Below, one piece after another: positions 4,293 to 36,057 of a DNA stretch of 36,057 nt. The position numbers and the translations under genes are program-made. This stretch comes from Alphaproteobacteria bacterium (lineage in GTDB: Bacteria > Pseudomonadota > Alphaproteobacteria > Bin95): assembly GCA_022826185.1 (NCBI GenBank), contig JAJDVH010000167.1, forward strand, positions 1 through 36,057, given 5' to 3'. The notes under the pieces are model-generated. The model was given only the letters and a program-made list of their open reading frames with translations, did no database searches and was not told the origin of the DNA. Every line of letters begins with the position of its first letter. Position 1 is the first letter of the stretch.

Positions 4293-5870
4293 CTACCTGA
4301 TATAGACCTCGTCCCACGGCGAGCACACGCCCCAGATGGAATCCACGGGCGGGTTGCCGATGCGCTCGTGGTTGAACACCGTGTGGTAGGGCGAGGTGTG
4401 CAGATAGGCGATGGGCGCCTCATCGACGACCAGCTTCTGCATCTCCCCGTAGAGCGCGGCGCGCTTGTCGCGGTCCAGCTCCTTGCCCGCCCTGTCCATG
4501 ACCGCATCGACCTCGGCGTTCTGGAACTGCTGGGTGTTGTGCCACGGCACGCCGGGGCGGATGTTCGTGGACTGGTAGGTGCGGTGGACGCCGATCACCG
4601 GGTCGCCCCAGTTGAAGACCGAGTCCATCGTCATGTCGAACTCGTGGTTGGAGACGGTCTTGATCCAGGCCCGGAAGTCCGCCGAGGCCTTGATCGTCAC
4701 GTCGATGCCGACCTTCTTGAGCTGCGCCTTGACGAACTCGGTCTTGCGCTTCCAGGTGCCGCCGGCGGGGATGTAGTCGAGCGTGGTGCGGATGCGAATG
4801 CCGTCCGCGTCCGGCGTGTAGCCGGCCTCGTCCAGCAGCGCCTTCGCCTTCTCGACATCGTAGTCGTAAGGGTTCACGTCCTTCGGCGCGAACACGCTGC
4901 CCGGATGGATCGGGCCGAGCGAGCGCTGCGCATAGCCGCCATAGAGCACCTTGAGGATGAACTCCTTGTCGATGGCGTAGGCGACGGCCTGGCGCACGCG
5001 CTTGTCGTCGAAGGGCTTGCGCTTGGTGTTGAAGGCCAGCCACTCCAGCGGGCCGATGGCCGAATAGCCGTCCGGCGTCAGGGTCAGGTGCTCGTTCTTC
5101 TTCAGGCGGTCCAGGACCGGCGCGTCGGACTCGAAGGCGGTCAGGTCCACATCGCCCTTCTCAAGCGCGATCACGCGGCTCGTGTTCTCGGAGATCTTCT
5201 TGTAGACGATCCGGTCGATATAGGGCTTGCCCTCGAGGAAGTAGTCCTCGTTGCGCTCCAGGATGATGTATTCGCCGGGCTTGAACTCCTTCAGCTTGAA
5301 GGGGCCGGAGCCGACGATGTCCTGGCTGTTCTGCGGATGCTGGCGGATATTGTCGGTGTTGCCGTACACATGCTTCGGAATGACCACGCCGAGCTGCGAG
5401 GAGAACGCCAGCAGGATCGCCGGGTGCGGGTCGCTCAGATTGAACACCGCGGTCAGCGGGTCCGGCGTGTCGATGGACTTCACCGGCGCATACATCGGCT
5501 TGAACGGGTGGTGCTCCTGGTAGGTCTCGATGGAGAACTTCACATCCTCCGAGGTGATCGGCTTGCCGTCATGGAAGCGCGCGTTGTCCCGCAGCTTGAC
5601 GGTCACCGTCAGGCCATCGTCGGAAATATCCCAGCTTTCCGCCAGATAGGGCTTCGGGTTCCACTCGTCGTCGAACCGGAGCAGCGCCGCGAAGAGCTGT
5701 GTTCCGGGGATGCCGGTGGGCGTGCCGGAGGCGATCGTCGGGTTGAAATGCCCGGCGATGATCCGATACGAGAATGTCAGCGTTCCGCCCCGCTTGGGTT
5801 CCTCCGCCGACGCCGCCGCTGCGGTCAAAGCGACCGCCGCGGATGTCAGCGCAACCAAGAATTTCTTCAT
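4293..5870 (-). CDS. Peptide/solute ABC transporter substrate-binding protein (family 5)
   Basis: A 525-residue periplasmic binding protein. The ATG at 5868-5870 is preceded by a strong GGGAGGAG ribosome site 5 bases upstream, and the product begins with a signal peptide: MKKFLVALTS, a hydrophobic Ala-rich core, then ASAEEPKRGGTL with cleavage after ASA. The mature start RGGTLTFSYRI is typical of SBP_bac_5 proteins, as are W-D-I-S-D-D-G-L-T-V-T, FHDGKPITSEDVKFS, VGSGPFKLKEFKPGEY and VRQAVAYAIDKEFI. The open frame runs on upstream to 6068, but that extension has no ribosome site and no signal character. It is the first gene of the importer operon. Ligand unknown: peptides, opines and other solutes are all possible. 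Confidence 0.95.
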   Translation of the reverse strand: MKKFLVALTSAAVALTAAAASAEEPKRGGTLTFSYRIIAGHFNPTIASGTPTGIPGTQLFAALLRFDDEWNPKPYLAESWDISDDGLTVTVKLRDNARFHDGKPITSEDVKFSIETYQEHHPFKPMYAPVKSIDTPDPLTAVFNLSDPHPAILLAFSSQLGVVIPKHVYGNTDNIRQHPQNSQDIVGSGPFKLKEFKPGEYIILERNEDYFLEGKPYIDRIVYKKISENTSRVIALEKGDVDLTAFESDAPVLDRLKKNEHLTLTPDGYSAIGPLEWLAFNTKRKPFDDKRVRQAVAYAIDKEFILKVLYGGYAQRSLGPIHPGSVFAPKDVNPYDYDVEKAKALLDEAGYTPDADGIRIRTTLDYIPAGGTWKRKTEFVKAQLKKVGIDVTIKASADFRAWIKTVSNHEFDMTMDSVFNWGDPVIGVHRTYQSTNIRPGVPWHNTQQFQNAEVDAVMDRAGKELDRDKRAALYGEMQKLVVDEAPIAYLHTSPYHTVFNHERIGNPPVDSIWGVCSPWDEVYIR

Positions 5871-6052
5871 TTTCTCCTCCCGATGGGTTTTCGGTTCCGC
5901 CCAGATGACCGGATCTGCCGCAAGGCCCGGATTCAGCCTTTGGACGTTGGCCCCGGAACCGCCGGCATCCTCAAAGGTCGCGGATTTGTTGTCAACGGCG
6001 TGCATGGCGGTGTCGAGGCAGGCTTCCGGCGACGCAGAGGGACTGCGCGGAT

Positions 6053-6163
6053 TGTCATGAAGTGTCATGCGATGTCATGCGATGTCATGGTCCAGCCGCC
6101 CCTGCATCCCTGATCCGGGGGCACACTCCATCCTGGTGTCATGAAGTGTCATGTTTTGTCATG
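6053..6163. repeat. Two clusters of phased TGTCATG heptamers (7 copies)
   Basis: The heptamer TGTCATG starts at 6053, 6063, 6073 and 6083 (cluster 1) and at 6137, 6147 and 6157 (cluster 2), always 10 bases apart within a cluster. The 17 bases TGTCATGAAGTGTCATG are identical at 6053-6069 and 6137-6153, 84 bases apart, about eight helical turns, so all copies would lie on nearly the same DNA face. They sit 183-293 bases upstream of the importer binding-protein ATG. On the minus strand the unit reads CATGACA. Phased direct repeats of this kind usually bind a cooperative regulator. The cognate protein is unknown. Confidence 0.75.
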
Positions 6164-6266
6164 CGGGGCCGCCTCCGCCGGGCTGCGCGGCCAGGGTTCC
6201 CGCGGCGGGCGCCAGCCTTGCGGCCGGTTTCGCCGCCAGTTCGGGGCGAGGGTCGGTTGCGGTCAT
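6159..6266 (-). CDS. Possible 35-residue Ala/Pro-rich leader peptide
   Basis: A small open frame, ATG at 6264-6266, with a near-ideal ribosome site: AAGGAGG ends 6 bases before the ATG. The product starts MTATDPRPELAAKPAARLAP and ends GGGGPA. Its stop codon lies inside the last TGTCATG repeat (6159-6161). It is downstream of the promoter-like sequence at 6511-6537 and upstream of the importer binding protein. The composition is Ala/Pro/Gly-rich with no membrane segment. The evidence is the ribosome site and position only; no family is recognised and it may not be expressed. Confidence 0.35.
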   Translation of the reverse strand: MTATDPRPELAAKPAARLAPAAGTLAAQPGGGGPA

Positions 6267-6294
6267 GCGTGCCTCCTTCCAGGCAAAGGGCGGG

Positions 6295-6310
6295 ACAGGG
6301 GTGTCCCTGT
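6295..6310. promoter_or_regulatory. Perfect palindrome ACAGGG-GTGT-CCCTGT
   Basis: A 6-bp inverted repeat with a 4-base spacer, about 20 bases upstream of the ribosome site of the possible leader peptide. It could be a repressor site or a small RNA hairpin in the leader. Nothing else supports a role. Confidence 0.25.
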
Positions 6311-6510
6311 TTTGCGCGCGTTTCGCGTGTGCGGGCGTGCGGGCGCGGGCGGGCGTCGGCGCCGGCGCGGTTCGCGCACCTGATTGCGCGCGCGAGACGC
6401 AGGACGCACCTCTCGCGCCTGCTCTCGCCGGGGGTTTTTTCGGCCCCCAGCCGGTCGCTTTCTGCAGAAACGCCGAAAGGCGGCCCCGGAAGCCGCCTCT
6501 CTCTACTTTC

Positions 6511-6537
6511 ATCATACACCATACCGCCAAATGTCAA
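6511..6537 (-). promoter_or_regulatory. Sigma-70-like promoter, likely for the importer operon leader
   Basis: On the minus strand a perfect -35 box TTGACA (6532-6537) is followed after 15 bases by TATGAT (6511-6516), one mismatch from the -10 consensus. The spacer is 2 bases shorter than optimal. The surrounding tract is the most AT-rich stretch of this intergenic region. Transcription would run toward the possible leader peptide and the importer gene, giving a leader of roughly 600 bases. Two GC-rich hairpins occur just downstream on the transcript: GGCGGC/GCCGCC (about 6480-6500) and GGGGG/CCCCC around a run of six A (about 6429-6447). Confidence 0.45.
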
Positions 6538-6562
6538 GCCCGCCCGGGAACAAAAAATGAAA

Positions 6563-6761
6563 TTATGCCAACGGCATCGACTTCAGACTCATGTCTTCTT
6601 CCCGTCATGCCCGGACTTGTTCCGGGCATCTCCCTCAACCATTTCCGTCCGGCCAAGCGGCCGCATGGATGCCCGGAACAAGTCCGGGCAAGACGGAAGG
6701 GGGCGATCGGGCGACGGGCGTCGAAGCCGTTATGGGTTCCGGTCAACGACCGCTGGTATAA
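6563..6761. mobile_element. Miniature palindromic element, copy 1 (complete)
   Basis: About 199 bases with imperfect terminal inverted repeats: TTATGCCAACGG (6563-6574) at the left, and CCGCTGGTATAA (6750-6761) at the right, whose complement is TTATACCAGCGG. The core is two large palindromic arms (6601-6630 and 6668-6696), each containing GCCCGGA-CTTGT-TCCGGGC or its complement. No open reading frame spans it. Copy 3 (35785-35933) is a near-identical inverted copy, and copy 2 (13538-13764) shares both ends but has another core. It fits a non-autonomous MITE or a REP-derived mobile unit. The flanking stretches from 5871 to 6872 otherwise show no recognisable protein gene. Confidence 0.7.
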
Positions 6762-15498: not shown

Positions 15499-15556
15499 TT
15501 CGACGTTCGTTTTACTTCGGTTGGGATACGCAGCGTCGCCGGTCCGACAACCCTGT

Positions 15557-15643
15557 CGTCATGGCCGGACTTGTTCCGGCCATCTCCCTCGGCGTCCTCG
15601 CGGCGGCGGAAGTGGATGCCCGGAACAAGTCCGGGCATGACGG
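15557..15643. repeat. Core-only palindromic repeat
   Basis: Arms 15557-15584 and 15615-15643 are complementary and carry the same GCCGGACTTGTTCCGGC-type palindrome as miniature elements 1 and 3. The terminal inverted repeats and subterminal sequence of those elements are absent. A further fragment, TTCGGGCATGACGG, follows near 15653. The 232 bases between 15499 and 15730 hold this repeat and no recognisable gene. Confidence 0.7.
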
Positions 15644-15730
15644 AGGAGGGCGTTCGGGCATGACGGTAAAGGGGTGCGGCGTAGAAACACGCAAACTTCC
15701 TGATCGGGACACCAGACGGAGTGTTGTTCG

Positions 15731-35753: not shown

Positions 35754-35784
35754 GGAAGGCGGACGTGTCCGCCGCCCCGGCGCC

Positions 35785-35933
35785 TTATACCCGCGGTCGT
35801 TGACCGGAACCCATGACAGACTCGACGCCTGCCGCCCGATCGCCCCCTTCCGTCATGCCCGGACTTGTTCCGGGCATCCATGTGGCCGCTTGGCCGGACG
35901 GACACGGTTGAGGGAGATGCCCGGAACAAGTCC
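35785..35933. mobile_element. Miniature palindromic element, copy 3 (inverted, truncated by IS)
   Basis: TTATACCCGCGG (35785-35796) corresponds to the right end of copy 1, read on the other strand. From there the sequence follows the complement of copy 1 with few differences: GGTCGTTGACCGGAACCCAT, the palindrome GCCCGGACTTGTTCCGGGC, CGCTTGGCCGGACGG, then GATGCCCGGAACAAGTCC. It stops inside the second palindromic arm at about 35933, where unrelated sequence begins. The missing part may continue beyond the insertion sequence. Confidence 0.75.
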
Positions 35934-35969
35934 ACGGCTGTCCGGTTTATTTTTGTGGACGGGTTGCAT

Positions 35970-36033
35970 GGCATTGATTCTACTGGCGTCCAAGCGTTTG
36001 CGAACGTTTTGGACACGAAGGAGGCTCAATGCC
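35970..36033 (+). promoter_or_regulatory. Leader hairpin before the transposase start
   Basis: GGCATTGA (35970-35977) pairs with TCAATGCC (36026-36033). Inside it GTCCAA...CGTT (35988-35998) pairs with AACG...TTGGAC (36003-36014). The ribosome site AAGGAGG lies between the two stems, and the outer stem ends at the base before the ATG. Such a structure can limit transposase translation from read-through transcripts. That function is inferred. Confidence 0.45.
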
Positions 36034-36057
36034 ATGCGCCACCACAATAGCGTTTTG
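36034..36057 (+). CDS. Transposase start, IS4 family (DUF4372 N-terminus), partial
   Basis: Only eight codons are in the window, MRHHNSVL. This is the characteristic opening of DUF4372-containing IS4-family transposases (M-R-H-x-N-S-V). AAGGAGG lies about 10 bases upstream. An overlapping ATG at 36029-36031 in another frame gives no known start. The call depends on a short match plus the insertion context. Confidence 0.65.

Follow-up and report, generated by a model that had tools for sequence, protein, structure and literature searches.

The TGTCATG array upstream of a peptide importer gene in the alphaproteobacterial window analysed here (the whole stretch of DNA, 36,057 nucleotides) is, judging from alignment of its copies, the 3′ module of a dispersed unit that, with the array read as CATGACA, comprises a promoter-like site, a GC-rich leader, a predicted small ORF and the array itself. 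The unit appears to have multiplied in one genus of sponge-associated Alphaproteobacteria, and the same array would be used with other promoters in a second lineage. The heptamers are probably docking sites for a protein lined along one face of the DNA, and we give a probability of about one half to the reading that the array provides the operators of a head-to-tail protein whose filament would act on the unit's own transcription. The pattern described in the original prediction is correct and stronger than was stated there; its reading in terms of the importer is not.

The array and its unit at the importer locus

TGTCATG heptamers start on the + strand at 6053, 6063, 6073 and 6083 (block 1, 6053..6089, CATGACA on the − strand) and at 6137, 6147 and 6157 (block 2, 6137..6163, the 3′ end of the dispersed unit). 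The step is exactly 10 within blocks and 54 from block to block, so that the seven heptamers at 10-base spacing, in clusters of four and three, stand at exact positions as first described. The identical 17-mer said to occur in both clusters is TGTCATGAAGTGTCATG, present at 6053 and 6137, i.e. 84 bp apart, and the array does lie 183–293 bp upstream of the importer, whose ATG is at 5870. The window holds nine copies of TGTCATG against 2.44 expected (none of 100 shuffles reached nine), and no other heptamer in it forms a triple with a 10-bp period. CRISPR arrays consist of repeats of about 23–47 bp and unique spacers of similar length; with repeats of 7 bp and spacers of 3 bp, this array was rightly set apart from them. 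The further claim that it is not part of the miniature elements was wrong, as block 2 (6137–6163) closes a dispersed element of about 430 bp at its 3′ end.

The copy of the unit at this locus occupies 6137..6563 on the − strand, with an approximate 5′ limit that reaches about 6597 in some copies; the leader profile matches at 6597–6168, and copies of the ~430-bp unit in other contigs of the same genome are 82–93% identical (blastn). Alignment of the copies places a promoter-like site at 6511..6537 (−), formed by TTGACA (6537–6532), 15 bp and TATGAT (6516–6511), with TG one base before TATGAT. It is followed on the same strand by the GC-rich leader (6279..6510), a Shine-Dalgarno-like AAGGAGG (6272..6278) and a predicted small ORF of 35 aa (6159..6266; MTATDPRPELAAKPAARLAPAAGTLAAQPGGGGPA), whose TGA stop lies within the first CATGACA. 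The copies have in common the putative promoter TTGACA-15-TATGAT/TAGAAT, with TTTGTTC or GAAATAATTC before it, then about 200 nt of GC-rich leader, in many cases AAGGAGG, and a small ORF that often stops in the array. The 5′ end of the unit is variable between copies and not sharp. Of the 43 array clusters in 519 kb of the own genome, 33 are accompanied by a leader at most 1.5 kb away on the CATGACA 5′ side and on the expected strand, and the remaining ten lie no more than 551 bp from where the analysed sequence ends; an array accompanies 30 of the 35 leaders, and no more than 251 bp is left beyond each of the other five. None of the 43 clusters is contained in a long ORF, and a coding role for the array was rejected on this ground.

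Rfam returned no family for the leader stretch of the window (one chance-level miRNA match lay far below threshold) and no RNA family at four other loci. A conserved leader RNA structure was considered and is not supported, given that RNAalifold proposed 18 pairs with two-sided change in only two of them. Pfam gave no match on three unit ORFs, and no transposase was found in the unit, two unit ORFs having no NCBIfam match and matching only PHROGs of unknown function. A few units carry longer ORFs of about 192–234 aa (L037 3220–3855, L124, L084 and L036) with DEFHYGGE and EFRAWRERQ motifs, and most other copies look internally deleted. The N-terminus of the longer ORF is weakly similar to phrog_31793, a PHROG of unknown function (E 1.5e-4), and weak matches were detected in only 2 of 189 other genomes of the class searched. 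Just 3′ of the last heptamer, GGGRCCC-type motifs (GGGGCCCACTCCA or GGGACCCCTGC) recur, for example at L031, L092, L033 and L046; they may mark the unit end or a terminator. A separate dispersed palindromic repeat of the CCCGGACTTGTTCCGGGCAT type, up to 18 copies deep among the own contigs compared, lies outside the array unit at 6602–6696, 15551–15664 and 35768–36051.

The importer gene, encoding the substrate-binding protein of a peptide ABC importer (SBP_bac_5; 4293..5870, −), is a neighbour of the unit and not part of it. An alignment of seven upstream regions reveals the importer's own conserved promoter-like block (5957..5997, −; TTGACA at 5995–5990), and this block is conserved in all seven sequences, with or without arrays. 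Among the importer orthologues of six congeners (E 1e-100 or better), an array lies upstream in two, near-identical in G003 and of another unit class in G005. No array was present upstream of the importer in G004, G007, G001 and G006 in the 1500 bp viewed (517 bp only in G001), and the G006 region contains a single heptamer at −1149. The array had been assigned to the importer, and an alignment upstream of orthologous importers had been suggested as a check, with absence of the repeats there named as refuting the idea; given its absence from four of the six orthologous loci, and its occurrence at more than 100 places beside unrelated genes, that assignment is not supported, and an importer-specific operator is rejected.

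Dispersal, second lineage and insertion polymorphism

Exact TGTCATG-N3-TGTCATG pairs number 259 in the own genome and none for the reversed control; with at most one mismatch, 321 places were found, against none for the reversed pattern. Pairs were detected in 8 of 60 genomes (the own one counted), all belonging to one genus (G000, the own genome, 259; G001, 1; G002, 177; G003, 192; G004, 228; G005, 210; G006, 53; G007, 104), and in none of the other 52, which comprised six from other genera in the same family and 46 others from the class. The leader query returned many copies in G004, G005 and G007, one 22-bp match in G008 and no match in G001 and G009–G013. The sole pair of G001 (L027 1501–1517) lies 52 bp upstream of a photolyase gene. 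An ancestral autoregulated photolyase site was rejected, as none of the 11 other listed loci, one of them a partial match whose upstream region is intragenic, has an upstream array.

A scan for triples returned, among the matches listed (103 stretches), 78 from the window lineage, ten from a second group (bin65, Spongia_Bin9, SB0661_bin_7, CO36386bin_9 and p16x44bins.53), one from a Silicimonas bin and 14 from unrelated organisms, which were set aside. The Silicimonas contig (L066, bin p16x57bins.41) carries both array and leader; given that this genome has only two pairs, the contig is probably misbinned. Genomes of the second lineage contain 44–56 pairs each (controls 0), and the leader profile had no match in any of the lineage's nine loci searched. 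Across 30 loci, 54 arrays (four seen twice) lie outside predicted genes, and in all 20 multi-array loci (two seen twice) the arrays share a single orientation. GAAC-N7-GAAC occurs at 22 of the 30 loci, upstream of and co-polar with the array in 21 (two places listed twice). Promoter-like GAACATTATATGAAC sites are numerous upstream of second-lineage arrays (e.g. L060 205, L106 1080 and L126 2309), and we take these and the GAAC-N7-GAAC sites to resemble the alphaproteobacterial LexA box. GAACATTANATGAAC is found 16–25 times per genome in G203–G206 and not at all in G000, G001 and G008, counts that hold for the GAACATTATATGAAC sites too. Upstream of other arrays, AGACCGGTCTGTC-like palindromes overlie a promoter-like TATA (L106 356, L107 4767, L111 3132 and L208 1576) and are possibly TetR-type operators.

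The array-bearing bins other than bin95 and bin65 are presumably sponge-derived, judging by their names. Bin95, of the window's genus, and bin65, of the second group, both originate from the sponge Aplysina aerophoba, according to an excerpt of PMC5649159, in which bin95 has the smallest N50 among the bins of that study. Since arrays in the own genome are often close to contig ends, the units may explain part of this low N50.

A clean case of insertion polymorphism is locus L039 of the own genome, which holds the unit in G000, G003 and G005; in G002, G004 and G007 the site is empty and the intergenic sequence can be aligned straight through the junction. Synteny is largely broken around the four loci tested, so the insertion polymorphism rests on this one clean locus and the importer locus. 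The top own leader copies (the best 40 of 253 candidates scored) are 88–94% identical to the window copy, whereas the best copies in G004, G005 and G007 reach 86, 81 and 79%, which suggests multiplication within each lineage. Such mobility fits the closest alternative to an action on the unit's transcription, in which the array would form the end at which a non-autonomous mobile element recombines or transposes, and would be bound in trans by a transposase or an excisionase-like protein. The insert at L039 stops about 35–45 bp past the array, as such an end might, and the excision factor RdfS is reported to bind with one molecule for every 10 bp (PMC11963761). The opposite end of the unit, however, is not sharp, and no terminal inverted repeat or target-site duplication was obvious by eye at the one clean junction. 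Integrases account for just 2 of 58 flanking proteins, and the two or three co-oriented arrays in single intergenic regions of the second lineage also argue against a recombination end. We regard this main rival as possible and, on balance, unlikely. A tandem pair of tyrosine integrase genes is situated close to an array at L047 11987–14244 and at L177 11001–13232.

An ordinary operator array for a PhoB-kind response regulator, controlling the adjoining genes, is a distinctly improbable reading. The heptamer shares TGTCAT with the Escherichia coli PHO box, a CTGTCAT heptamer in a 7 + 4 arrangement (PMC4415409, excerpt), and PhoP binds 7-bp direct repeats head-to-tail with a 4-bp spacer, extendable to tetramers (PMC4832192, excerpt). 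The period here is nonetheless 10 and not 11, and the same excerpt reports about 20-fold weaker binding by Mycobacterium tuberculosis PhoP with a 3-bp spacer. The genes beside the arrays do not favour such control either: the 58 flanking proteins scanned with Pfam are diverse, with at most two proteins per family, downstream neighbours are co-directional in 24 cases and antiparallel in 17, and most orthologous importer loci do without the array. Among PF00486 proteins (OmpR/PhoB-type; 58 matches in nine genomes, with the frame choice off at a few loci), no group tracks the arrays in the sense of occurring in every array-bearing genome tested and in no array-poor one; one OmpR-like group occurs in G000, G004 and G005 and not in G001, G008 and G010, and is incomplete in the second lineage. 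By the same measure, no group tracks the arrays among PF12728 proteins (HTH_17, BldC/Xis-type; 29 matches in seven of nine genomes).

Helical phasing and conservation of the heptamers

In 519 kb of the own genome, heptamer pairs lie 10–11 bp (87 pairs, 86 of them at 10 bp and one at 11 bp), 20–21 bp (22), 30–33 bp (23), 41–43 bp (37), 51–54 bp (25) and 62–64 bp (9) apart, with no pair at any other distance between 8 and 69 bp; these counts are not independent of one another. An independent test used 32 between-block gaps with sequences less than 60% similar to one another, the loci of both lineages being pooled. The 18 gaps of 12–60 bp (20, 20, 21 four times, 30, 31, 32 three times, 33, 33, 40, 43, 43, 53 and 54) gave a mean cosine of 0.83 at a period of 10.5 bp and 0.84 at 10.6 bp, values that none of 5000 uniform draws reached, against 0.37 at a period of 10.0. 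The gaps fit the repeat of B-DNA, whereas a decayed 10-bp tandem would give multiples of 10, and this points to recognition at the DNA level from the same face. The same-face placement originally proposed thus finds support in the sequence, with a gap period of 10.5–10.6 bp and pair distances up to 69 bp on helical multiples.

Over six orthologous pairs with long shared flanks (L161 and L039, L160 and L039, L078 and L168, L052 and L176, L141 and L032, L152 and the window), a single heptamer position out of 182 differs, as do 6 of 48 in the spacers and 1009 of the 22422 remaining columns, in a collection of loci gathered by their arrays or leaders and therefore biased toward intact heptamers; most loci were found via arrays, so decayed arrays are under-sampled. 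In a seventh pair, L061/L176, one whole 10-bp repeat of L061 is missing from L176 (raw score 7/28) and the three aligned heptamers have no substitution, which indicates that repeat number can change by one unit. Left out were L154 against the window (0/14 in heptamers and 2/3 in spacers; another unit class), L153, which is the same place as L152, and shorter or paralogous matches, some with decayed heptamers (L088/L176, 12/35; L072/L171, 8/42). The spacers are AT-rich in a GC-rich genome, with an AT fraction of 0.84 in the first spacer. Phasing and conserved heptamers beside changing 3-bp spacers lend support, at the level of sequence, to the binding platform for a cooperative regulator that had been predicted.

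The same data bear on a role in RNA or translation, by which CATGACA at a period of 10 would supply TGA stops in three frames, or RNA–protein sites, ending small ORFs. Many small-ORF stops do fall within the array, three successive heptamers close all frames and the polarity relative to the promoter is fixed. However, runs of two heptamers come close in number to runs of three (92 and 99, counts that may include up to four foreign loci, the source of 22 distances of 5 bp), conservation covers the whole heptamer beyond TGA, and the phasing across gaps is that of B-DNA. As second-lineage arrays after promoter-like sites also show no evident ORF by eye, we find this role hard to credit. Least plausible of all is a functionless relic of tandem repeats spread by a selfish element, which the varying insertion sites, the random neighbours and growth by 10-bp tandem units (the one-repeat difference between orthologues), a possible source of multiples of 10, would allow, but which is at odds with gaps fitting 10.5–10.6 better than 10.0, with heptamers less changed than their surroundings and with recurrence of the array beside unrelated leaders in another lineage.

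A proposed filament and its known counterparts

In the mechanism that we favour, in which the filament would influence transcription of the unit itself, one protomer would bind per helical turn, head-to-tail on one face, in the manner of winged-helix PhoB/PhoP, BldC and RdfS. Proteins of this sort read directional sites of the present design, an exact heptamer at each turn with AT-rich spacers between. In both lineages the arrays come after a promoter-like site and keep one polarity relative to it, for which reason the filament is proposed to act on the unit itself. Such a filament would stop or silence the unit's outward transcription, and insertions beside host genes might thereby be tolerated. 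Against this mechanism stand the PF00486 and PF12728 profiles, in which no group follows the arrays, the step of 10 where PHO boxes have 11, the position of the arrays away from any −10 element, the bias of the locus collection toward intact heptamers and the blurred 5′ end of the unit. That a protein binds, of which kind and with what effect, we infer from the arrangement of the sites.

In the literature searched, we found no account of binding to TGTCATG direct repeats or of sponge intergenic repeats, and among the matches listed for CATGACA and helically phased sites none was relevant. Taken together, the parts may form an undescribed nucleoprotein system, in which a filament protein would use helix-phased operators at more than 100 intergenic sites, laid down by a mobile promoter–leader unit and passed between, or kept in, two lineages; we offer this broader view tentatively, as somewhat less probable than its negation. 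If a protein does read the array, these genomes carry a large network of operators spread by a mobile element. Given that bin95 and bin65 represent one lineage each in the same sponge, the published metatranscriptomes of Aplysina aerophoba (PMC12879404) could test transcription directly.

The array unit differs from familiar repeats in having purely directional phased heptamers that stay intact amid diverging surroundings, in two lineages of sponge symbionts. Dispersed repeats in bacteria are mostly hairpins or remnants of transposons. REP/BIME, ERIC and Correia elements and MITEs resemble the array unit in their many intergenic copies, restricted to certain lineages and polymorphic for insertion, but they are built on hairpins or terminal inverted repeats, which the array unit does not appear to be. 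With MITEs and insertion sequences it shares dispersed copies with empty sites; from all these repeats it stands apart through its promoter-like site, long leader, small ORF and phased heptamers.

Among protein-bound arrays, the PHO box is similar in its conserved heptamer containing TGTCAT, its head-to-tail direct repeats, its less conserved spacer and its capacity for extension (excerpts of PMC4415409 and PMC4832192). It differs in its period of 11, against 10 here, and in that the present sites number more than 100 and do not stand beside a −10 element. BldC, with 9-bp repeats (PMC5859096, excerpt), and RdfS resemble the proposed system in occupying about 9–10 bp per protomer on directional repeats of varying number along one face, a likeness that on our side concerns spacing and polarity. 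In the excerpted accounts, BldC sites are AT-rich 9-mers (PMC5859096) and RdfS binds without a consensus (PMC11963761), whereas the array described here repeats an exact heptamer.
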